Source: Ignavibacteriota bacterium
Lineage (GTDB): Bacteria; Bacteroidota; Ignavibacteria; Ignavibacteriales; Melioribacteraceae
Reading direction: 5' to 3'
NCBI GenBank assembly: GCA_002698995.1
Contig: PAAX01000013.1
Location: forward strand, 1-64,000
DNA: 64,000 nt
Shown piece by piece: positions 26,618 to 60,706 of this stretch. Both the position numbers and the translations under genes were made by a program. Positions within the stretch are counted from its first letter, which is position 1; every line of letters starts with the position of its first letter. A model generated the notes under the pieces. That model ran no database searches and was not told the DNA's origin. It saw only the letters and a program-made list of their open reading frames with translations.

Positions 26618-27005
26618 TTTTTACCAACTTTTCTACTTTGTTTATTAAAAGATTATAGTCTTCAATTGGCTTAACTAAAAAATCATCTGCAAGACTTTTT
26701 GCAAATTGTTCGCTTCCATGAGAAAGATTATATGCCGTAATAATTAAAATAGGAATATCCGAAAAATTTTCATTTTGTTTTAAAATTCTTGAAAGCTCAA
26801 TTCCATCTATTCTTTTATTATTCAAATAAGTGTTCTTTAGATTCACATCCATAATAATAATCGAATATTTTTTTTGATTTATCAGTTCAAAAATTTTATC
26901 ACCATCTTCAATTACATCAATTTCATAATCTCTTTTAGATAATAAATAACTATAAAATTTTTGTGTAAAGGGATCATCTTCAACAATTAAAATATTTTTT
27001 TTCAT
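26610..27005 (-). CDS. single-domain response regulator (CheY-like)
   Basis: A 131-residue stand-alone receiver domain with DD near residues 10-11 (IVEDDPF), phospho-Asp D53 in IIMDVNL, T84 in LIITAYN and the switch Lys in DDFLVKPIED. A short insertion, LKNTYLNNKRIDG, follows the phosphorylated Asp. It is joined to motB1 by an ATGA overlap. Its place suggests it carries signal to the motor or to the neighbouring phosphorelay proteins. It need not be the chemotaxis CheY, as no cheA is in view. Confidence 0.9.
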   Translation of the reverse strand: MKKNILIVEDDPFTQKFYSYLLSKRDYEIDVIEDGDKIFELINQKKYSIIIMDVNLKNTYLNNKRIDGIELSRILKQNENFSDIPILIITAYNLSHGSEQFAKSLADDFLVKPIEDYNLLINKVEKLVKSE

Positions 27006-27781
27006 AAAGGATTTGTGTACTTAACAATAATACTGATTCTTCTATTTACAACATCATAAGGGTTATTTTTGTTTCTTAATCTATTATCTGCATAACCTCT
27101 AATTTCATCAATTTGTTCTTGCTTAACACCACCGTTTATTAGCGATCTTCTTGCGGCGTTTGCTCTATCAGCACTTAGCTCATAATTAGAATAACCGCCG
27201 TTTTCAGCTCCAGGAAAAGGACGAGAATCCGTATGTCCTTCTATTACAATTTTATTATTTAGTTTAGAAATTTCTTTACCAATTAATCTAACTAATTGTT
27301 CCGCACGATTATTCATTTGAGCTGTACCAACCTCAAAAAAAACATCTTCGGAAGATTCCATTATTTCAATTCTTAATCCTTCATCTATAATTTCAATTTC
27401 AACTTGATCTAGAATTCCTTCAAAATCTGAACTGCTGCTCAATTCATCAAGCAATTCTTCCCCCATCTGCTCAAGTTTTTTTCTTTCCATTTCTTGAAGC
27501 TGAAGATCGGACATAATTTCGGGGCTGACTTTAGTCATTCCACCGCCGTCAATAACGGTTGGTCCTCTTCCGGTTCCAAATCCAACCGGATCTTTAAAAT
27601 AACCGGCTACTGCTTCTTTTACTTGTTCACTTTGTCCTAAAATCCAAAGCACAATAAAAAGAGCCATCATTGCAGTTACAAAATCTGCATAAGCAACTTT
27701 CCAAGCGCCGCCATGATGCCCTTCCCCTTTTCTTTTCCCTTTTTTAATTATTATCGGGGTATTTTCGCCGGAATCAGCCAT
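27002..27781 (-). CDS. motB: flagellar stator protein MotB (first stator set)
   Basis: The peptidoglycan-anchored stator subunit, 259 residues. A basic N-terminus with GHHGGAWKVA precedes one membrane helix carrying the ion-binding Asp D33 (YADFVTAMMALFIVLW). The plug and linker follow, and then an OmpA-like domain (about 125-255) with the peptidoglycan motif IVIEGHTDSRPF and ADRANAARRSL. The WKVAYADFVTAMMA type of helix is usual for proton-driven MotB, though ion use is not proven by sequence. It directly follows its motA, with the TAA of motA immediately before the ATG. Confidence 0.94.
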   Translation of the reverse strand: MADSGENTPIIIKKGKRKGEGHHGGAWKVAYADFVTAMMALFIVLWILGQSEQVKEAVAGYFKDPVGFGTGRGPTVIDGGGMTKVSPEIMSDLQLQEMERKKLEQMGEELLDELSSSSDFEGILDQVEIEIIDEGLRIEIMESSEDVFFEVGTAQMNNRAEQLVRLIGKEISKLNNKIVIEGHTDSRPFPGAENGGYSNYELSADRANAARRSLINGGVKQEQIDEIRGYADNRLRNKNNPYDVVNRRISIIVKYTNPL

Positions 27782-28636
27782 TTACTCTTTTCCTCTTAAG
27801 AAGTTTTCCAGTTCAGAGAAAGTCGGTCTAGCATCTGAATAAATTGTTCTTCTAGCAATTTCAACAGCTACAATTGGAGGATTTCCTTTTGCATAAGCAA
27901 CAACTGCAGCTTTTATGGTTTCCAAATATCTTACATTACCTTCAATCTGATGTTCAATATTTGTTGCTAAAGGATTTACAAATCCATACGATAAAAGCAC
28001 ACCTAAAAATGTTCCAACTAAAGCTGCAGCAACGTGTTTTCCAACAGCTTCGGCGCCGTCATTAATGCTTCCCATTGTTACAATTATTCCAAGCACTGCA
28101 GCAACAATTCCCAATCCGGGTAATGCATCTCCCGTTTTAGCAATTAAATGAGGAATTGGTTTCTGTTCCATTTCGTAAGTTTCAATTTCTGTATCCATTA
28201 AAGACTCAACTTCATGCGGAGGAACACCGCCGGAAAGCATTACTTTTAATGTGTCGCATAAGAAAGTCAGTGCAACTTCATTCTTTATGAATTTTTCATT
28301 TCTGGAAAGTACATCACTTTCCTTCGGATTTTCAATATGTTTTTCAATTGCTAAAAGTCCGTCTCTTTGCGCAACCAGAAATAATTCATAAAAAGATTTT
28401 AATAAATCCATATAATCTTTTTTGGAAACATGATTTCCTTTAATTGCTTTTGGTATTGCAGCAATTATCTGTTTGATTGTTTCCAGGGGTGCAGAGATTA
28501 AAAGACTTCCTATTGCCGCACCTCCAATTGTTACAAATTCAGAAATTTGCAGAAGTACAATTAAATTTCCGCCGGCCATTAAAAAGCCGACTATAACACC
28601 AACCGTTACAACAATAGCACCAATAATTATGAACAT
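27782..28636 (-). CDS. motA: flagellar stator protein MotA (first stator set)
   Basis: The 284-residue stator channel subunit has four membrane helices and a large cytoplasmic domain between helices 2 and 3. The closing helices carry the family segment PGLGIVAAVLGIIVTMG and AALVGTFLGVLLSYG. It resembles the enteric-type MotA with the N-terminus FIIIGAIVVTVGVIVGFLMAGG. It pairs with the adjacent MotB to couple ion flow to rotor torque. It lies 11 bases after the REC-HPt gene. No good ribosome site is visible. Confidence 0.94.
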   Translation of the reverse strand: MFIIIGAIVVTVGVIVGFLMAGGNLIVLLQISEFVTIGGAAIGSLLISAPLETIKQIIAAIPKAIKGNHVSKKDYMDLLKSFYELFLVAQRDGLLAIEKHIENPKESDVLSRNEKFIKNEVALTFLCDTLKVMLSGGVPPHEVESLMDTEIETYEMEQKPIPHLIAKTGDALPGLGIVAAVLGIIVTMGSINDGAEAVGKHVAAALVGTFLGVLLSYGFVNPLATNIEHQIEGNVRYLETIKAAVVAYAKGNPPIVAVEIARRTIYSDARPTFSELENFLRGKE

Positions 28637-30009: not shown

Positions 30010-30837
30010 TTATTGTTGTTGTTTTAAAATTACTATATCTACTCTTCTATTTTTTGCTCTTCCTTCTTCAGTATCGTTCGGTTTAATAGGCTCGTATGCC
30101 GCAAAACCGGCAATCGATAATTTATCCGGTGTTATACCTTCAATATTTAGAAGAAAGTGGGCAGTATTTGTTGCTCTTGCAACCGATAAATGCCAATTAG
30201 TTGGATATTCCGGAGTACTAATCGGCACATTGTCCGAATGTCCTTCAATTCTAATTTCATTAGGAAGTTCGGATAATACCTGCGCAATTTGTTTAAGAAC
30301 CACTTTTGCATTTTCATTTAATTCTGCTTCACCTGAATTAAACAGAATTTTATCCATAATTCTTAGAGTTAATCCTTTATCTGTTTCTATTAACTCTACT
30401 CCATCTGAAAGACCGTTAATTTCTATTAATTCATTTACGGTAGCCTTCCATGTTCTCATTCCGTTAAATCTATCAGTAATACCTAAATTAGAATCTTCAA
30501 AATCAGTCAGTTCATTTTCCTTACCAAATACACTTCCCAACGCAGCAGTATATGAATCATATTTCTGCAAATCGATTGAAGAAATAGCATAAAGAATTAT
30601 AAAGAGCCCCAGCAAAAGAGTAATCAAATCAGCATAAGTAATTAAGTAACGATCTTTTTCTCCATCATCTTCGGAAAAATTATCTTCAATACTTAAGCGG
30701 CTATTAACTCTTGTTGTTCTCTTTGAGGAAGCATACTTATCATTCTCGACTTGATTATTGTGGGAATCTCCCCACTCTGCAAGGCCAAAACTCCCTCCAA
30801 AGATATTTCCATCATATGTTTTTCTTCTAGATGACAT
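30010..30837 (-). CDS. motB: flagellar stator protein MotB (second stator set)
   Basis: A second MotB-type protein, 275 residues. The single membrane helix has the ion-binding Asp D70 (YLITYADLITLLLGLFIILYAIS). The OmpA-like domain (about 150-272) contains IRIEGHSDNVPI and the NRRVDIVI ending. The helix is closer to MotB of the MotS/PomB-like branch than the first set is, so it may use another ion (inference). The start is odd: the only ATG, GTG or TTG in frame lies 145 bases inside motA2, giving a 65-residue charged, glycine/serine-rich cytoplasmic extension. A rare ATT just after the motA2 stop is the alternative. No ribosome site is visible at the ATG. Confidence 0.88.
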   Translation of the reverse strand: MSSRRKTYDGNIFGGSFGLAEWGDSHNNQVENDKYASSKRTTRVNSRLSIEDNFSEDDGEKDRYLITYADLITLLLGLFIILYAISSIDLQKYDSYTAALGSVFGKENELTDFEDSNLGITDRFNGMRTWKATVNELIEINGLSDGVELIETDKGLTLRIMDKILFNSGEAELNENAKVVLKQIAQVLSELPNEIRIEGHSDNVPISTPEYPTNWHLSVARATNTAHFLLNIEGITPDKLSIAGFAAYEPIKPNDTEEGRAKNRRVDIVILKQQQ

Positions 30838-31472
30838 TGTTTTAATCTATCTGCTATTGGAAACCAAATTAAATTTGCGCTAAAAACTCCCCAAAGTGTA
30901 GCAATAAAAGCAGTTGCAATGCTTTGTATTAATACATTCGGATCATTTCCGGCATTAGCTAAAGTTATAATTAAAGCCATTACGGTTCCTAAAATTCCCA
31001 TTGTAGGAGAATAACCTCCCATTTTGGAAAAAATATGAACATTTGAATAATGGCGTTCCTGCATCGATTTTATTTCTGTTAAAGCTATGGTTTCTAATGA
31101 AACCGGGTCAGTTCCGTCAAGCACATACTTAATCAGCTTTTGCGGAAACTGATATTTTAATCTAAATAAATCCTTTTCTACAGAAAGTAATCCTTCCTGT
31201 CTCGATTTTTTAGAAAGTTCTACAAAAATTTCTATTAAATATTTTACTTCATACTTTTTGGGATTATACGCAAGTTTAATAAGTTTGAATGCCCCGAAAA
31301 ATTTTTCCCAGCCGAAACCGATTATTGTAGCGGAAAAAGTTCCGCCAAAAACAATTATAATTGGTGAAATTAGGAAAAGTGCTCTAAACGAACCTCCTTC
31401 AATCATATAGGCGCCGAATACAACAAGCAAACCCAAAATTAAACCATGTAATCCGCCAAGTTTTTTTATCAT
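30693..31472 (-). CDS. motA: flagellar stator protein MotA (second stator set)
   Basis: A 259-residue MotA/PomA-type channel subunit. Four membrane helices are seen, with the first as GLHGLILGLLVVFGAYMIEGG and the closing pair around PTMGILGTVMALIITLAN and AFIATLWGVFSANLIW. The C-terminal tail LEGVLALQSGEIPTIIK is conserved in the family, so the 3' end that overlaps motB2 is truly coding in this frame. ATGA overlap with flgL at its start. Sequence differs enough from motA1 that the two pairs are not a recent duplication. Confidence 0.93.
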   Translation of the reverse strand: MIKKLGGLHGLILGLLVVFGAYMIEGGSFRALFLISPIIIVFGGTFSATIIGFGWEKFFGAFKLIKLAYNPKKYEVKYLIEIFVELSKKSRQEGLLSVEKDLFRLKYQFPQKLIKYVLDGTDPVSLETIALTEIKSMQERHYSNVHIFSKMGGYSPTMGILGTVMALIITLANAGNDPNVLIQSIATAFIATLWGVFSANLIWFPIADRLKQCHLEEKHMMEISLEGVLALQSGEIPTIIKSRMISMLPQREQQELIAA

Positions 31473-32704
31473 AAGAAATCCATAAGTGATTTAGGAAGAA
31501 TCATGGATGAAATTTTATAACTCATATCTAAATTGAATTGTGTGTTATTTAGATCCATAATTGCTTCTGCCAAATCAACATCTCTTTCATTGCCAAGTAA
31601 TTCTTGAAGCTCAATTGATTGATTAGAAAGCAGTTCACCAGTACTGCTTAATTTATTCATAATACTTCCGGCTTCCGAAGTTTTATTAATAACATGCTGA
31701 CTAAATTCCTCAACAATTTTTACCTGATTACTATTCGGCTTAATTCCATTTTCCAAACCTTCCTTAATAGATAGCAGTGTTTTGAAAATATCAGCCTTTT
31801 GAACTTGATTAGAAAATACTTGCGCCGATGCTGATTTTTCCGTTAATCCTTTTATATTCAAATCAAGCTTAATTCCAGTTGCCGAATCCTCAATAAAAAT
31901 TGATTCTTCATTATTTCCATCTATTGTACTCAAAGCCCCGTTTGCATTAAACACCAAAGTATTTGAACCTGAAGTCACTGATGTCATACCTGCATCAACA
32001 ATATCATAATCCAATGTATAAGTATTTGCTGCAGTTTTAGTATAGGATATATTCATATCGTATTCGTTTCCATCAGGATCCAAAACTTTAACCGTATTAG
32101 AAACCACAGAACCTACTGCTGAGCTTGAATCCAAATTTCCTGTCTGTTTTAGCGATGGGAAGAATAATTCATTTCCGGTTATATTAATCTTCTGATTTAT
32201 ATTGGTGGCTATTCGAATTTTTTGTTCACCATTTAATTCGCTTGAAGAAGCATCTATTGTTGAACCATTTTTAACAAAAGGATCAGTTGAATGATTTGTT
32301 CCGCCGAATAAGTATTGTTCATCAAACTTAGAATTAGCAAAATTAAGCATAGCTTCAATCGACATTCCAATCTTTGAGGCGTAAGAATTTAAATCATTTA
32401 CGGAAGCATTATTAATAGAAGCAAGATTCACCAAAACATTTTGAACTTCCGAAGTTATTCCTTCAAGAGAAAGTGCTGTTGCATCCAAATATGATTGCGC
32501 ACTTTCAATATTTTTTTGAAATGTAGTAACTCCGCTCAACTGGTTTTGAAGTCTCAGAATTCTAGAAGTACCTGCAGGCGAATCAGATGGTCTATTTACT
32601 TTACTTCTTGTAGAGATCTGTTCTTGTATATTTTGAGTATCAACCTTGTGCTTTTCAAGATTGTAAAGAAACGTCTGCTGAAGTATTCTATCTGTTACTC
32701 TCAT
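31469..32704 (-). CDS. flgL: hook-filament junction protein FlgL with inserted FlgE-type D2 domain
   Basis: The second junction protein (HAP3) between hook and filament, 411 residues. The N-terminal coil is flagellin-like (MRVTDRILQQTFLYNLEKH, then RPSDSPAGTSRILRLQ), and the C-terminal coil contains ERDVDLAEAIMDLNNTQFNL. Between them residues 189-293 match the D2 domain of the hook protein FlgE encoded at 54343-55983: GNLDSSSAVGSVVSNT, then DPDGNEYDMNISYTKTAANTY and ATGIKLDLN, against AVGDSVTDSNT, NGNEYTLSVTYTKTAADEY and TLGIDFNFD. It follows flgK by 2 bases. Confidence 0.9.
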   Translation of the reverse strand: MRVTDRILQQTFLYNLEKHKVDTQNIQEQISTRSKVNRPSDSPAGTSRILRLQNQLSGVTTFQKNIESAQSYLDATALSLEGITSEVQNVLVNLASINNASVNDLNSYASKIGMSIEAMLNFANSKFDEQYLFGGTNHSTDPFVKNGSTIDASSSELNGEQKIRIATNINQKINITGNELFFPSLKQTGNLDSSSAVGSVVSNTVKVLDPDGNEYDMNISYTKTAANTYTLDYDIVDAGMTSVTSGSNTLVFNANGALSTIDGNNEESIFIEDSATGIKLDLNIKGLTEKSASAQVFSNQVQKADIFKTLLSIKEGLENGIKPNSNQVKIVEEFSQHVINKTSEAGSIMNKLSSTGELLSNQSIELQELLGNERDVDLAEAIMDLNNTQFNLDMSYKISSMILPKSLMDFL

Positions 32705-32706
32705 AA

Positions 32707-34068
32707 TTATACCATGCTTAATAATGTTTGTAATATTTCATCTGCAACTTTTATTAATCTTGCAGAAGCATCATACGATCTTTGAAACTTTAATACGTTT
32801 ACCATTTCTTCATCAACTGAAACACCGGAATATTCTGCTTTCTGTAATTCCAACTGATTCAAAACCAATTCATACGATTCAAGGTTTTGTTCTTGAACTC
32901 TCTTGTCGTTTCCTAATCCGCTTACAAAATTTGAGTACTTTTCAGATATAGTTATTCCGTCTATTAATTTTTCATCCTGTAGTTTTGATATCTGAAGAGC
33001 AATAGAATTATTTCCGCTTGTTCCGTCTTCAGAAATTGAAATCAAATTAACATTATCGACAATTTCCGAATTTAACTTTAGCACTCCACTATCGTAGCTG
33101 CTGAAAAAATTAACTCCGGTTGCCGGTGGTTCGGTATTTGAATAACCTGAACTATGAAGTGTATTTACCTGTTCGTAAATTGCTTTTGCAACCAAATCCA
33201 ACTCATTTTGATAACTTGGAATCTGTGTATTGTAAGCTTTTGAAAGAGCAAATAATTCTCCACCGTTTAATGCCAAAGATGCTGCTCCATCTTCTGTAGT
33301 AATTTTAATTTTACCGCCGGTTTCGGTCAATTTAAATTGAGTACTTTGAATTCTATCAACAGCAAATACACCACCAATGGAAATATTGGCAACATTAAAT
33401 TCATCATACGAAACATTTATGTTTGCCAGTTTACTCAACTGATTTATTAATTCATCCCGTTTATCCAAAAGATCGTTAACCGAACTTCCTCCGGTTGCAT
33501 TTGCTTCATAAACTTGTCTGTTTAATACCCTAATCTGTTCAGTTAATCCGTTCAACTGATCAACAATATCGGAACTTTCATTTTTAAGATCTGATTTTAC
33601 TCTTGTAATCCCTGAATAAATATTTTCAAGTTTGGTAGCCATCTGTTGGGCAGATTGTACAACATTATTTCTTAAAGGAACTGAAGTAGGATTAACAGCA
33701 AGTTCATCCCAAGAATTGAAAAAACCGCTGATTAAATTTGATAACCCAAGCTCAGAAGGTTCACTTAAAAGTGATTCTATTTGTCCAAGTATTGAGGACT
33801 GCTTATCTGCAAAAGAATAGCTTTGGTTGTAAGTTCTTATCTGCGTTTCCGTAATTTCATTTTTTACTCTAACTATATCATCCAACCTTACACCCGAACC
33901 GAAGGCTATTTTGGTTCTCATATCCGGAATTTCGGTTGCAAGCACAACATTCTGCCTTGAATAATTTGGATTATTGGCATTTGCAATATTGTTTGATGTT
34001 ACAGCAAGCGCCTTCTGATACGCAGATAGTGATGTACGCGATATGTCAAATAATTTGTTAACGCCCAT
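32707..34068 (-). CDS. flgK: hook-filament junction protein FlgK
   Basis: The first junction protein (HAP1) on the hook, 453 residues, shorter than the enteric protein (about 550), so it has a reduced outer domain. The N-terminus has the axial-protein motif with YQKALAVTSNNIANANNPNYSRQ. The C-terminus has the matching coil VDEEMVNVLKFQRSYDASARLIKV. Both ends form the coiled-coil core. It follows flgN with a TAATG overlap, so chaperone and substrate are translated together. Confidence 0.94.
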   Translation of the reverse strand: MGVNKLFDISRTSLSAYQKALAVTSNNIANANNPNYSRQNVVLATEIPDMRTKIAFGSGVRLDDIVRVKNEITETQIRTYNQSYSFADKQSSILGQIESLLSEPSELGLSNLISGFFNSWDELAVNPTSVPLRNNVVQSAQQMATKLENIYSGITRVKSDLKNESSDIVDQLNGLTEQIRVLNRQVYEANATGGSSVNDLLDKRDELINQLSKLANINVSYDEFNVANISIGGVFAVDRIQSTQFKLTETGGKIKITTEDGAASLALNGGELFALSKAYNTQIPSYQNELDLVAKAIYEQVNTLHSSGYSNTEPPATGVNFFSSYDSGVLKLNSEIVDNVNLISISEDGTSGNNSIALQISKLQDEKLIDGITISEKYSNFVSGLGNDKRVQEQNLESYELVLNQLELQKAEYSGVSVDEEMVNVLKFQRSYDASARLIKVADEILQTLLSMV

Positions 34069-34524: not shown

Positions 34525-35328
34525 TTAACCTTCCAAATGATTTAAGTAACCGAGAACTCTTTTTACATATTTTTGAGTTTCATCAAACGGGGGAATTCCA
34601 TTGTATTTATCAACATTCCCCGGACCCGCATTATAAGCGGCTAAAGCTAATTCAACATCACCATCATATTTTTTTAACATCTGCGAAAAATATTTTGTAC
34701 CGCCAAAAATATTCTGCTGGGGATCCCAAACATTTTTTACACCCATATCTTTAGCAGTTCCATCCATTAACTGCATTAATCCTTTTGCTTTTGCTTTTGA
34801 AATAGCTTTTGGATTTCCGGCAGATTCAGTAAGTATAATTGATTTTATTAGATTTTCACTTATTCCAAATTTTGAAGAAGCCTCTTTGATTATCGGATTA
34901 AAGTAATCTACTTTACTCATCGAATTTTTAGAAGGCATAATTCCTTTTAATCCGCCGTCAAATTTAAGTTCGGGAGATTTTTTAGTTACAGGTAGTCCGT
35001 ATCCAAACTGTGAGGGATCAAATTTTTCACCTGTTACTTTTTCAAAAATCTGTTTTGCAATTCCCAAACTTTTACTTTCGGTCATATGGCTTGCAATTTC
35101 CATTTGGAATAATGAATCAAAAACATCACCGCCGTAATTGTTTTCACCAAACATTCCGTTTGTAGTTTGATTCATACTTTTAAGCATCATTGTAGTAAGC
35201 ATACTTTCAAAATCCATTGATGCTTTTGCAAGCTTATTCTTTTCCTCTGCTGTATATCTTGATTCAATTTTCTGAGGTTCAGAAATATGCTTTGTATTAT
35301 TCGATATTTTTAATGGTATCTGTTCCAT
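34525..35328 (-). CDS. flgJ: FlgJ-type rod-binding domain fused to SLT lytic transglycosylase
   Basis: Residues 30-100 are the rod-binding domain of FlgJ (ASMDFESMLTTMMLKSM, YGGDVFDSLFQMEIASHM, SLGIAKQIFEKV). Residues 145-260 are a soluble lytic transglycosylase domain (GH23) with catalytic E168 in ILTESAGNP, then AKGLMQLMDGTAKDMG and LALAAYNAGPGNVDKY. In enterics the second domain of FlgJ is instead a GH73 glucosaminidase. The protein would be exported into the periplasm with the rod and open the peptidoglycan for it. It lies between flgI and flgN. Confidence 0.92.
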   Translation of the reverse strand: MEQIPLKISNNTKHISEPQKIESRYTAEEKNKLAKASMDFESMLTTMMLKSMNQTTNGMFGENNYGGDVFDSLFQMEIASHMTESKSLGIAKQIFEKVTGEKFDPSQFGYGLPVTKKSPELKFDGGLKGIMPSKNSMSKVDYFNPIIKEASSKFGISENLIKSIILTESAGNPKAISKAKAKGLMQLMDGTAKDMGVKNVWDPQQNIFGGTKYFSQMLKKYDGDVELALAAYNAGPGNVDKYNGIPPFDETQKYVKRVLGYLNHLEG

Positions 35329-54342: not shown

Positions 54343-55983
54343 TTATCTTACTAAGTTTGTTATTTCTTGAAGTAAATTGTCACTTGTTGTTACAACTCTC
54401 GCATTAGCTTGGAATCCTCTTTGAGAAACTATCATTCTTGTAAATTCTTCAGAAAGATCTACGTTTGATTGTTCTAAGGCGCCAGATTGAATTGTTGTTC
54501 CTGTAGATTCGCCCGGTTCACCAATTAAAGGATTTCCAGAGTTAGCTGATACTGTGTACATATTTTCACCCACACTTGTTAATCCGTTTAAGTTAGGGAA
54601 TGTAGCCATCATAATTTGAGCTAATTGTTTTGATTGACCATTTGAGAAAACACCAACTATATATCCATATTGATCTATACTTAAATTTGATAAAGAAGCT
54701 GCAGCAGAACCATTTTGGCTTAATGCTGAAAGTACAGAATCAGCAGAAGTTTGTGTAATTCCATCAAAGCCTGATCCAAAGTTTAAAGTTATATTTTCAG
54801 CTTGTGCGCCGCCTGTTGGTGCAAAAGTAACTACCGGTGGATTCGGAGAGATTGAATCAACTGATCCATCAGAGTTAAATGATATTGTACCGGAGTTTTG
54901 ACTTAAAGTACCGCTTGAGTTTGGAATATCTGCTGTCCAGTTCCAGTTATTTGATGAAGTTTTTGTAAACTTAACTGTTAATGTATGTGAATTACCTAAT
55001 GAATCAAAAATTGATACTGTACCTGTTACTATAGTTGCATCTCTGTTATCATCAACTGTAGAACTTACTGTAGTTGAATTACTTGTTTGTGTTATTTCTG
55101 TCATGTCAAAATTAAAATCAATTCCTAAAGTCGGCTCCACAATATTGATAGCTGCGGCAGCTGCTCCGTTAACAGTTGCAACATCACCTGTTGTATTGTC
55201 AAAAACAACTGCTAAAGCTGTTGCACCGTTATCTGCTACAACGTTACCGTCTGCATCGGTTAATTCGTAAGTCATATCATATTCGTCGGCAGCGGTTTTT
55301 GTGTATGTTACACTTAATGTATATTCATTTCCATTTGAATCATAAATAGTATTCGAATCAGTTACTGAATCGCCAACAGCAATTGCAGAATTGATATTTC
55401 CTGATTGCACATATTCTTCTGATCTAGTAATTGAAGCGGTACTATCCAAGTTTCCGCCCCATGTTGCATTAGTTGTTGCAACTGCAGGTAATCTTAAATT
55501 TGTATCTATTGAAATATCTTCTAAATTATTTCCGGGAGGTATAACACCTTCGCTGGTTGCTACTTTACCTTGAACAATAGCACCGTTTTGAGGATTAACT
55601 AATTTTCCGTCAGCATCAAAAACAAACGATCCGGCTCTTGAATAAAATCTTTCGCCGTTATTTTCAAGAATAAATAAACCGCTACCTTGTAAAGCTAAAT
55701 CAGTAACAATACCTGTTCTTTCAAAAGTACCTTGATTCCAGTTTCTATCAACTGAATTCAATTTCATACCTAAACCTATTTGAAATGTATTTGTACCACC
55801 GGAAAGATCAGTTGGATTGTTGCCAAATCTTACAAACTGATTGAAAGTATCGCTGAAAGTAACTCTTGAACCTTTATAACCGATTGTATTAACGTTGGCG
55901 ATGTTATTACCAATAACATCCATCATAGATTGGTGATTTCTTAAACCAGAAACGCCTGCGAATAGTGAATTAATAAGTGACAT
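54343..55983 (-). CDS. flgE: flagellar hook protein FlgE with duplicated D2 domain
   Basis: The hook subunit, 546 residues (enteric FlgE is about 400). The axial N-terminus reads MSLINSLFAGVSGLRNHQSM then VIGNNIANVNTIGYKGSRVT, and the C-terminus has GALEQSNVDLSEEFTRMIVS. The central part holds two D2 (FlaE-type) domains in tandem, about 177-305 (YDSNGNEYTLSVTYTKTAAD) and 310-415 (FDSLGNSHTLTVKFTKTSSN), which explains the extra length. The first copy is the one that resembles the insert in FlgL. AGGAGG sits close before the ATG. Confidence 0.95.
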   Translation of the reverse strand: MSLINSLFAGVSGLRNHQSMMDVIGNNIANVNTIGYKGSRVTFSDTFNQFVRFGNNPTDLSGGTNTFQIGLGMKLNSVDRNWNQGTFERTGIVTDLALQGSGLFILENNGERFYSRAGSFVFDADGKLVNPQNGAIVQGKVATSEGVIPPGNNLEDISIDTNLRLPAVATTNATWGGNLDSTASITRSEEYVQSGNINSAIAVGDSVTDSNTIYDSNGNEYTLSVTYTKTAADEYDMTYELTDADGNVVADNGATALAVVFDNTTGDVATVNGAAAAAINIVEPTLGIDFNFDMTEITQTSNSTTVSSTVDDNRDATIVTGTVSIFDSLGNSHTLTVKFTKTSSNNWNWTADIPNSSGTLSQNSGTISFNSDGSVDSISPNPPVVTFAPTGGAQAENITLNFGSGFDGITQTSADSVLSALSQNGSAAASLSNLSIDQYGYIVGVFSNGQSKQLAQIMMATFPNLNGLTSVGENMYTVSANSGNPLIGEPGESTGTTIQSGALEQSNVDLSEEFTRMIVSQRGFQANARVVTTSDNLLQEITNLVR

Positions 55984-57166: not shown

Positions 57167-60100
57167 CTATACAACATAATCGTATGTGTTATAGCCAAGT
57201 GATTTAACTTTAGATTCATCAGTAATTTCTATTTCTTCTTCTCTAAGTGAGTTTCCGTTACTTCTTTTTTTGCTTCCGCTGAACTGCTTTCCGCTTTTTA
57301 CATCAGTATCACTTAAAGATATATTTACACCGCCAAGTTGAATACCGCTTCTTGACAACTGCGACTGTAATTCATTAAGGTTATTTTCTACGTGATGTTT
57401 AATTGCCGTAGATTCAACTTCAATTTTTGCTCTAAGTGTGTTTTCAACCATCTCCAGCTTTATCTTCATCTTACCCAGATTTTCCGGATCGACTTGAAGA
57501 ACTAACGTATTCTTGTCCTGCTTTTGAATATGCTTTGCAACTTCTCTCATTATCTCGGCAGTTTTAACAATTCTTACGTTGTTGCTGTTAAATCTTGCTT
57601 GTTCGTTTCTAAACTCGTTATTAACTTTTTTAGTAAAGTCCTCTTTACTATTTATTAATTCTTTTTCGAATCTTGATTCCGGTTTATCTCTTAATTCTGT
57701 TTTAACATCCTTGTGATCGTCAAGCTTATATTGATCATTTTTAGATAGATCTTCTTTTGTACTGCTTTGATTTCTTAGATTAGAATCAGAACTAGTTTTA
57801 GATTCCGCAGTTAATTCTTTTTCGTTAACCTGAGTCTTTTCAGATTTATTGTTATCATTTTTTGTCACAGATTCTTTTATAACAACAGTTTCCTTTTCAA
57901 TCTTTTGTTCAGGTTTTGCAGCTGTTTCAAAATTGGTCTCTTTAACTTTCTCATTTAATTTATTTCTTTCGCTGCTCTTTAAGTCCGCACCTGGAGCCGG
58001 TTTTCTATCATCGTCAATTTTGCTTACTGATTCTTTAGAAGATTTATTTTCTGTATCATTTACTTTGTTTAACTGAACAGTTTCTGATTTTTCACTTTTC
58101 AGCGGTTTGCCATTTTCTTGTATAGTATTTTTATCAGTAGAATTGTTATAAACTGATTTTAGCTTTTCTTCATGTTTTACTTCTTGATTGCCACCCGGTT
58201 TTTCAAATGATGCAGTTTTGATATCCCTTTCAATAACTGTATTAGGTTTATCTTCTTTTACTTGATCTGTACTAGTTTTTTTATCTACAATAATTTCCTT
58301 TTCAACAGCGACATGCTTCTCAGGTTTAACTTTGATTTCTTCTTTCTTTACAAGTTCATCCATTTTCGGATTTGCATTTAGAGATTCTTTATTCTCTGTT
58401 TTATTGGCGGCACCGTTATTCTTTTCCGAAATTATCTTTTCCATATTCTGTGATTTTGTATTAGGTTCAGTGGTTTTAACTTCCTCAATATTTTTTAGAT
58501 TTGGATGCAATTCAACTTTTATTTCTTTGGCTGAAGTCTGTTCAATTTTACCATCGATGATCTTTACTTCATTTTGCAAAGTTGGTTTTGTATCCGGTTT
58601 ATCATTCTTTACTTCAGTTTGGTGTAATTCAATTTTACTTACCGGTGCTTTTACTTCAGTTTGATTCTTCTCTCTTCCAGTGTGTACTTCCGCACTCTCA
58701 TTTATTTTATTATTGGTGTTATCAACTTTAATTTCACTTTTTAACTGAACTGGTTTAACTTCAACATTATTTGTATTTTGTTTCGACTCAATACTTGAAT
58801 TTAATTCAGCTTTTACATTCTTTACTTCACTTTGCAATGTGGGTTTTACATCTGCCTTCGAATTCTTTATCGTTTCATTTAGTTCAGTTACAGATTTTTT
58901 TACAGTAGAATTGGATAAGCTTTTTTTATCTGCAATTGCGCTGTTAGTCAATTCCTTCTTAACAATTTCCTTATCATTATTTGATTCTGATTTTATGTAA
59001 TTAACATCTTTAACAATCTTTTTAACTTTGATACTGATCTGCTCACCTGAATTATTTTCTTTTGGTTTTTCAACTGTAGCATTTGGAACTGTGACTTTTA
59101 TATCATCATTTTTAGTCGCTGCTAATTTAGAATCTTGCTGAACTGGTTCCTGTTTAATCAATTTAACCGGTTCATTATTCGCGGAAATTTTTACTTCACT
59201 GTTTTGATTATTTCTTTCGGTTGAATTTTGAACAGCCACTTTCTCTGCTTCATTGTTTGAAGAAAGAATATTTTTATCAGGATTGGTGCTTGTTTTTACT
59301 TCAGCAGCTTCAGTTTTGATTTCACTTTTAGAATCTGAATTCACTTTATGGTTAGCAATTTTTTCCGGTTCTGAATTTACTGTATTAAGAATCGGAGTTT
59401 TTTTATTTAATTCAGTCTCTTCAATTTCAGTAGCAACTTTACTCTCTGATCCATTTGAAATATTGATTGAAGGTTGTCCGATAACATTTTTGGTAATGTT
59501 ATCAGATTGATTTTCATTGCCATTTGTCGATTCAATCTTTACTTCAGAATTTACACTTTCCTTTGCCGGTACTGCAGTTTCAGTCTTAGGCATTATTTCT
59601 ATTTTTTCTGATTTTTCTTCAATGTTATCTTTATTCTGAATTTTAGTTGTCGAATCAGAAAGGTTAAGTTCACTTGAAATCGATTTAATTATTTGTGAAT
59701 CTGAGTTTGATTTTAAGTCATTAATATTATTGTCAGCACTTTTTACTAGTGTAAGTTTAGCACTTTCATTACTTACTTTTTCAACCAGATCAATACTGAT
59801 AATGTTTTCATTTAACAATGCAGCAGCATGTTGAGTTGTATTTTGAACAGCATTATTATTGGTAATCAAGGCTAAATTCAGCTGCTTACTGTTAGCAAAT
59901 GAAGCAATATTCTTAGAAGCATAAACTGGATTTTCATCTTCAATAAAACTTGATAATTCTTCTTTATTATTTATTACATTTATCTGTGCAACAACCAGAT
60001 TGTTTTCATCCACTAATGCAAAATCTTTTTTATCTAGTTTTATCTTATCAACATTTTTTTGTAGAACATCTAAATCCGAATCAATCTTTTGTACAGATAA

Positions 60101-60706
60101 TTTAATTGATTTGGTCTCAGATTGATCAGTGCTCTTTTTAACAACTTCATTATCTTTATTTACCTTTGAAATAAGAAAAGACTGAATCCCTTTATCAGTA
60201 CTAACAGAAACAATAAGAGGATTGCCCGAATTTAATTCCTTAACAATCTTATTATTATTATCTGATGTTGTTTGATTATCATTTGGGGTTTCTATTTTCG
60301 CAACTTTTGTCTCAACATCGGTATTACTTTCACTTGATTCATTTTCATTAACAGATAATATCTTCTTTAATATACTAAGTAAATTCACTTGTGCCGAATC
60401 ATTACTGCCATTTTGTTTAGTAATTTCATTTACATTTAGAGTAAGTTTTACTTCCTCTAAATTATCTTGTGATAATTGGGTTAAACTAATCTGATCATTT
60501 TGAAATATTGATTTTACATCCAAACTCGGTAATTCGTTTTGCTTTCCTTTAAGAAGTGTAGGGAAACCGCTTTCATTCTGTTCATGGTTTATAAATACAT
60601 TTATAATATCTGAGAACAAATAATTTGTACTTTTCAGCTTTGCCTGTTTAGCAAAAGTCAATCCTTCCTGCACATCTGTATTTATAAAAAGTGGACTGAA
60701 AACCAT
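57167..60706 (-). CDS. fliK: very long hook-length control protein FliK
   Basis: A 1179-residue FliK, about three times the enteric length. The C-terminal core that acts on FlhB is at about 1060-1150 (LVLQVDPENLGKMKIKLEMV, VENNLNELQSQLSRSGIQLG). Everything before it is low complexity: about a thousand residues rich in Lys, Glu, Ser, Asn and Val with recurrent motifs such as SEVK, KTEVK and EVKPT, predicted to be disordered. FliK is a molecular ruler that is exported during hook growth. The long reading frames on the opposite strand arise from this biased composition. Adjacent to flgD downstream and motE upstream. Confidence 0.93.
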   Translation of the reverse strand: MVFSPLFINTDVQEGLTFAKQAKLKSTNYLFSDIINVFINHEQNESGFPTLLKGKQNELPSLDVKSIFQNDQISLTQLSQDNLEEVKLTLNVNEITKQNGSNDSAQVNLLSILKKILSVNENESSESNTDVETKVAKIETPNDNQTTSDNNNKIVKELNSGNPLIVSVSTDKGIQSFLISKVNKDNEVVKKSTDQSETKSIKLSVQKIDSDLDVLQKNVDKIKLDKKDFALVDENNLVVAQINVINNKEELSSFIEDENPVYASKNIASFANSKQLNLALITNNNAVQNTTQHAAALLNENIISIDLVEKVSNESAKLTLVKSADNNINDLKSNSDSQIIKSISSELNLSDSTTKIQNKDNIEEKSEKIEIMPKTETAVPAKESVNSEVKIESTNGNENQSDNITKNVIGQPSINISNGSESKVATEIEETELNKKTPILNTVNSEPEKIANHKVNSDSKSEIKTEAAEVKTSTNPDKNILSSNNEAEKVAVQNSTERNNQNSEVKISANNEPVKLIKQEPVQQDSKLAATKNDDIKVTVPNATVEKPKENNSGEQISIKVKKIVKDVNYIKSESNNDKEIVKKELTNSAIADKKSLSNSTVKKSVTELNETIKNSKADVKPTLQSEVKNVKAELNSSIESKQNTNNVEVKPVQLKSEIKVDNTNNKINESAEVHTGREKNQTEVKAPVSKIELHQTEVKNDKPDTKPTLQNEVKIIDGKIEQTSAKEIKVELHPNLKNIEEVKTTEPNTKSQNMEKIISEKNNGAANKTENKESLNANPKMDELVKKEEIKVKPEKHVAVEKEIIVDKKTSTDQVKEDKPNTVIERDIKTASFEKPGGNQEVKHEEKLKSVYNNSTDKNTIQENGKPLKSEKSETVQLNKVNDTENKSSKESVSKIDDDRKPAPGADLKSSERNKLNEKVKETNFETAAKPEQKIEKETVVIKESVTKNDNNKSEKTQVNEKELTAESKTSSDSNLRNQSSTKEDLSKNDQYKLDDHKDVKTELRDKPESRFEKELINSKEDFTKKVNNEFRNEQARFNSNNVRIVKTAEIMREVAKHIQKQDKNTLVLQVDPENLGKMKIKLEMVENTLRAKIEVESTAIKHHVENNLNELQSQLSRSGIQLGGVNISLSDTDVKSGKQFSGSKKRSNGNSLREEEIEITDESKVKSLGYNTYDYVV

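Follow-up and report, generated by a model that had tools for sequence, protein, structure and literature searches.

The window analyzed here is a stretch of 64,000 nucleotides from a member of the Ignavibacteriota (order Ignavibacteriales, family Melioribacteraceae), in which no Rfam matches were found. It carries a flagellar gene cluster that includes the genes for the hook protein FlgE and for the two junction proteins, FlgK and FlgL (Table 1). The assignment of FlgL rests on the NCBIfam equivalog model TIGR02550, which matches the whole protein at 183.5 bits (cut-off, 127.2), on the Pfam models Flagellin_N (41.6 bits; cut-off, 26.6) and Flagellin_C (27.9 bits; cut-off, 23), and on the position of the gene directly after flgK, which also lies beside flgL in relatives. 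A full-length AlphaFold2 (AF2) model of the protein aligns with solved FlgL chains (Z about 13), at a model pLDDT of only 63.5. We conclude that this FlgL is an orthodox D0-D1 junction protein into which a single D2 domain of the FlgE type has been inserted; by orthology, its predicted place is the upper ring of the junction, with FlgK on one side and flagellin on the other.

TABLE 1 Features of the hook and junction genes in the window
Feature	Position	Strand	Evidence
flgL, hook-filament junction protein FlgL (HAP3), 411 aa	31469..32704	minus	TIGR02550; Flagellin_N and Flagellin_C; place after flgK
FlgL N-terminal D0-D1 part, ending at the insertion point after INITGNELF	32147..32704	minus	Flagellin_N match; alignment to FlgLs lacking D2
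FlgE-type D2 in FlgL, residues about 187-296	31817..32146	minus	PF07559; BLASTP to own FlgE; FlgL-only profile; AF2 model
FlgL C-terminal D1-D0 part, restarting at ADIFKTLLSIKEGLENG	31472..31816	minus	Flagellin_C match; alignment to FlgLs lacking D2
flgK, 453 aa, ring protein between the hook and FlgL, lacking an outer D2	32707..34068	minus	Pfam FlgK_D1 at 94-322; Flg_bbr_C
flgE, hook protein (546 aa) containing a tandem pair of D2 domains	54343..55983	minus	Two stretches matching Pfam FlgE_D2; also the D1, rod and C-terminal domains of FlgE
FlgE D2a, first copy, residues 193-306	55066..55407	minus	Own D2 profile, 112 bits; closest FlgE match to the D2 in FlgL
FlgE D2b, the canonical D2 (second copy), residues 309-418	54730..55059	minus	Own D2 profile, 107 bits

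Reading the sequence points to further features of the cluster. A FlgJ-like protein (34525-35328) joins an N-terminal rod-binding part to an apparent SLT lytic transglycosylase domain, not a hydrolase of the enterobacterial type. There are two separate motA/motB-like stator pairs (27002-28636 and 30010-31472), the second directly after flgL. Beside flgD lies a low-complexity protein of 1179 aa (57167-60706) that is rich in lysine, asparagine, and serine; its C terminus resembles that of FliK, and its length would be unusual for a hook-length protein.

The sequence-only reading had recognized a hook-protein D2 in FlgL residues 189-293 (positions 31826-32140 of the minus strand), and residues and positions correspond as it claimed. 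BLASTP aligns FlgL 187-289 with residues 193-299 of the window's FlgE at 35% identity and 63% positives (E 3e-14), which bears out the proposed likeness, although the FlgE range that had been given, 177-300, is slightly off, the partner segment beginning at about 193; FlgE carries a second GNLDS motif at residue 177. The next match (E 2e-7) is the second D2 copy, so that what had been called both FlgE copies are indeed two D2 copies, but in tandem inside one FlgE protein. Chance likeness is excluded by a shuffle test, in which the real score of the FlgL stretch against FlgE was 166 and the maximum of 1,000 shuffles was 77. The Pfam FlgE_D2 model (PF07559) matches FlgL at 25.2 bits (cut-off, 22.7; E 2.6e-5) and the insert alone at 29.9 bits, and in this genome the model matches in three places only, two in FlgE and one in FlgL. 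Among nine FlgL inserts, eight match PF07559 at E values of 0.1 or lower, and when the domain alone was searched against NCBIfam, the FlgE model was recovered for all nine and the FlgL model for none.

It could be argued that the insert is an ordinary outer domain of the FlgL, FlgK, or flagellin kind, whose likeness to FlgE D2 is accidental or just that of beta-sandwiches in general. A D2 domain in this region is common among FlgLs, and that of Xanthomonas FlgL is a beta-sandwich (PMC6155364). A standard FlgL D2, that of a Cupriavidus FlgL, was run as a control; in the PDB it finds FlgL of Legionella, FlgL of Xanthomonas, and FlgK of Burkholderia, but no FlgE. A profile built from the nine FlgL inserts, with no FlgE included, behaves in the opposite way: it retrieves eleven FlgE sequences (best, 1wlg; E 1.1e-7) and, even at an E value of 10, no FlgL, FlgK, or flagellin chain in the PDB. 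The same division appears in profile-profile comparison by hhalign, where the inserts score 98.7% (E 1.7e-16) against canonical FlgE D2 and a probability of 0.4% against the Cupriavidus domain. The latter gave no match when compared with FlgE D2; its faint 6-bit score against the D2 profile of this analysis would favor an ordinary outer domain. Plasmid-borne proteobacterial FlgLs, also taken as controls, lack the FlgE D2. The PDB profile searches, together with the two hhalign comparisons, thus refute an ordinary outer domain at this level, and we consider it extremely improbable that the insert is one. The search that the sequence-only reading had named as its refuting test hence came out on the side of the hook protein, and the identity of the insert as a FlgE-type D2 is confirmed.

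Predicted structure agrees with this assignment. As the full-length model was mediocre, the D2 domain was modeled alone, giving an AF2 model with a pLDDT of 90.3. This model matches 16 FlgE entries of the PDB with VIA Z scores of 10.1 to 12.5 over 100 to 111 residues (rmsd, 1.9 to 2.4), and the next chain, an unrelated one, reaches only 4.9. Foldseek concurs, so the structural comparison that had been proposed earlier likewise points to FlgE D2. Xanthomonas FlgL D2 is not among the structural matches listed for the model, but it may still share this fold. The alignment rows behind the model were the window's own two FlgE D2 copies, however, and the structural match is accordingly not fully independent, unlike the sequence profile, which was built from FlgL inserts alone.

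Alignment to D2-less FlgLs from the same family shows the domain to be a clean insertion, located after the D1 beta-hairpin INITGxELF and before the next D1 helix, ADIFNTLxxI. The contrast is sharpest within one genus, where the FlgL cores of two genomes (G029 and G106) are sisters, yet only one of the two FlgLs has D2 and the alignment is otherwise continuous. The GC and GC3 contents of the domain are similar to those of the rest of flgL. A different insertion site is used in G162, a member of another family of the class, whose FlgL carries the D2 after helix alpha3 instead of before it.

The class was sampled with 294 genomes, 119 of which gave a match to the FlgL model, some of these matches being flagellins. 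In the window's order, D2 is present in 15 and absent from 23 of the 38 FlgLs read, and it occurs in all three families sampled. Outside the order, a FlgE-type D2 was found in the FlgLs of G013, G162, and G261, all from other families of the class; across the phylum sample, FlgE_D2 matches spanning FlgL were confined to this class. On the FlgL core tree, the pattern of presence and absence takes a minimum of six changes, and strong branches force four of these.

Trees of the D2 domain, which the sequence-only reading had suggested building with both FlgE copies, place the FlgL D2s of the order with the order's FlgE D2a and apart from D2b (support, 92; 99/84 in a second tree), whereas in G013 and G162 the D2 of FlgL falls beside the FlgE D2a of two other families (100/99). 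FlgE D2b groups with the single-copy FlgE D2 of other families. A single, class-wide origin of all 17 FlgL D2s is rejected (p-AU 0.0008). For the order, one clade of its 15 FlgL D2s is not rejected (p 0.25), and in another run the likelihood was higher when they were held together. Within the order, FlgL D2 distances track those of the FlgL core (partial r 0.65, p < 0.001) and, with the cores accounted for, show no co-variation with those of FlgE D2a (partial r 0.06, p = 0.34), which indicates one old acquisition in the order followed by vertical descent and repeated loss. The two D2 lineages, together with the different site in G162, indicate at least two acquisitions in the class, perhaps three, a conclusion that we regard as well supported.

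We propose, with good support from these trees and distances, that the ancestor of the order gained in its FlgL a D2 related to the N-terminal copy (D2a) of the two tandem hook D2s, that this D2 has since descended together with FlgL, with many losses along the way, and that another lineage of the class gained a FlgE-type D2 in FlgL separately. D2 is a universal domain of FlgE, and so the domain ultimately comes from the hook. Even so, one D2 tree has the FlgE D2a clade nested inside the FlgL D2s, and the D2a type may have been copied in either direction, FlgL to FlgE included. Two other histories do not hold. A recent copy from the window's own FlgE is countered by the GC and GC3 of the domain, which are like those of the core, and by identities, which reach 43% with the D2s of other FlgLs against 34% with the FlgE D2a of the window. 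Continuing exchange with the hook gene is countered by the FlgL D2 distances, which follow the FlgL core; mean identity is 39% among FlgL D2s and 29% between FlgL D2 and FlgE D2a. An early BLAST result in which the window's FlgL core seemed nearer to short FlgLs was an artefact, D2 having split the alignment. Thus, of the exchange of an outer domain between hook and junction that had been suggested for this DNA, the transfer itself is upheld, the insert being of the FlgE type, and a recent or ongoing event in this genome is not. Taken together, the identity of the domain and its history constitute a reading in which we have considerable confidence.

The role of the domain has to be considered in light of its axial neighbors. 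Axial proteins fall into two structural classes, those of rod and hook, whose D1 is built of beta-strands, and those of junction and filament, whose D1 is helical (PMC6155364). The FlgK of the window has no match to the Pfam FlgK D2 model, and in relatives FlgK is about 452 aa long both with and without D2 in FlgL. The flagellin of this genome, at 275 aa, has no room for an outer domain, and a second flagellin frame spans 276 to 280 aa. With FlgK and the flagellins bare, the axial order is a hook with doubled D2, a bare FlgK, a FlgL with a hook-type D2, and a bare filament.

The sequence-only reading had supposed that the FlgL D2 continues the surface lattice of the hook, touching FlgE D2 over the junction and extending the array on the filament side. 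Such a continuation is suggested by the hook type of the domain and its nearness to the added D2a copy, by the possibility that the doubled FlgE D2s of the order reach past a thin FlgK ring, and by a somewhat higher frequency of FlgL D2 with the most FlgL-like subtype of FlgE D2a (Fisher p = 0.053, uncorrected for kinship). However, many relatives with a tandem-D2 hook have a FlgL without D2, and the distances of the FlgL domain do not vary with those of FlgE D2a, as given above. The geometry is also unfavorable. In the Salmonella hook, D2-D2 contacts run along 6-start lines only (PMC6769732), and the FlgK layer would interrupt such lines; Salmonella FlgK and Salmonella FlgL each make up a single layer of 11 subunits (PMC12221982). 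If the arrangement here is Salmonella-like, a FlgL subunit has FlgK, FlgL, or flagellin as its 6-start neighbors but at no point FlgE, and any D2 array on FlgL would join no more than pairs. Owing to the intervening FlgK ring without D2, the hook D2 array is probably not extended by the FlgL D2, and on the layer geometry and the absent co-variation we judge continuation of the lattice to be unlikely.

As an alternative, we suggest that the FlgL D2 would be a surface knob that adds FlgL-FlgL contacts and so may stiffen or shield the junction, a dispensable tuning part that would not be needed for assembly. Hong et al. proposed in 2018 that the D2 of Xanthomonas FlgL reinforces FlgL-FlgL contacts (PMC6155364), and it is by analogy with this protein, whose D2 belongs to a different family, that reinforcement of the ring may be put forward here; taken alone, we offer this role only tentatively, as possible rather than probable. 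Its main rival is that the domain is near-neutral baggage from recombination among axial genes, tolerated at a permissive surface site and drifting until it is lost. Repeated loss, the clean in-frame absence in a congener, and the use of two insertion sites within the class would all be expected of baggage. Yet the domain has been kept long enough for mean identity among FlgLs to fall to the value given above, with the D2 motifs D-GN and TKTA-N-Y retained; it has diverged (1.19) only slightly more than the FlgL core (1.06), and the independent gain of the same kind of domain suggests a use. We therefore regard drift of an idle domain as a somewhat unlikely account.

Selection might instead concern outside interactions (adhesion, evasion of phages or predators, or glycosylation) and not the mechanics of the junction. 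Exposed flagellar domains in general show fast, patchy turnover, which would suit this idea, as would the bareness of the flagellins here. But one ring of about 11 copies would make a poor adhesin or target, and no specific evidence was seen for outside interactions, which we consider quite improbable as the explanation. A broader proposal, decidedly doubtful in our estimation, is that a portable hook-type D2 has been recruited repeatedly, at more than one site, and that here it may form a second collar reaching over bare FlgK to the doubled hook D2s, such that hook and junction would bend as one surface-coupled unit. Of these readings, we take reinforcement of the FlgL ring to be the likeliest.

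Compared with known systems, the domain shares its sequence family and, over its whole length, its predicted fold with the D2 of FlgE (PF07559; Salmonella, 1wlg; Treponema denticola, 6ndx). It differs from the D2 of the hook in sitting on a flagellin-type helical D1 instead of the beta-strand D1 of the hook and in forming part of a ring one layer thick, where the hook is a long helical array. The FlgLs of Xanthomonas campestris, Legionella, and Cupriavidus likewise have an optional outer domain in the variable central region, a beta-sandwich like the D2 of FlgK (5ziz, 7c7z), and FlgL of Bacillus cereus has none (PMC6155364). Those domains are of another sequence family than the one described here, and the Xanthomonas D2 splits helix alpha3 (PMC6155364), whereas that of the window precedes it. 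In Campylobacter, FlgL and FlgK have divergent outer domains (PMC5691160), and there as here the outer domains of the junction vary along with extra FlgE domains; in Campylobacter, however, FlgK has diverged to fit the extra hook domains (PMC5691160), whereas here FlgK is bare and it is FlgL that has a hook-type D2. The pair of FlgG (rod, no D2) and FlgE (hook, D2) also shows D2 present or absent on a common axial core (PMC6769732), but these are paralogues of one fold, and in our case D2 crosses between two structural classes of axial protein.

Optional FlgL outer domains and variation in the outer domains of FlgE are thus already known. In the open-access literature searched, we found no report of a FlgE-type D2 in FlgL; what appears to be new is a hook-family D2 on a junction protein, gained more than once. 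A D2 common to both axial classes and gained at least twice shows that outer domains are exchangeable between the classes; with its repeated loss, it also means that one segment of the flagellum can reuse outer parts of another. What FlgL outer domains do becomes testable in natural pairs that differ in having D2, some of them from a single genus. A FlgE_D2 match by itself is, moreover, no proof of a hook protein.

FlgE of the window's order carries tandem D2 domains, of which D2a evolves much faster (mean distance, 1.49) than the FlgE core (0.34). Tandem FlgE D2 is also found in two other families (f5 and f19), apparently of separate origin, and one relative (G237, L118) has three D2s in a FlgE of 705 aa. 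In families f10 and f18 of the class (L066, L072, L073, L084, L085, L087, and L090), FlgE is about 683 to 708 aa long and has a single recognized D2 from near residue 440, with about 260 unexplained residues ahead of it. Outside flagellar genes, an open frame of 2412 aa (G009:C56:121040-122629) has two weak, below-cut-off matches to FlgE_D2.
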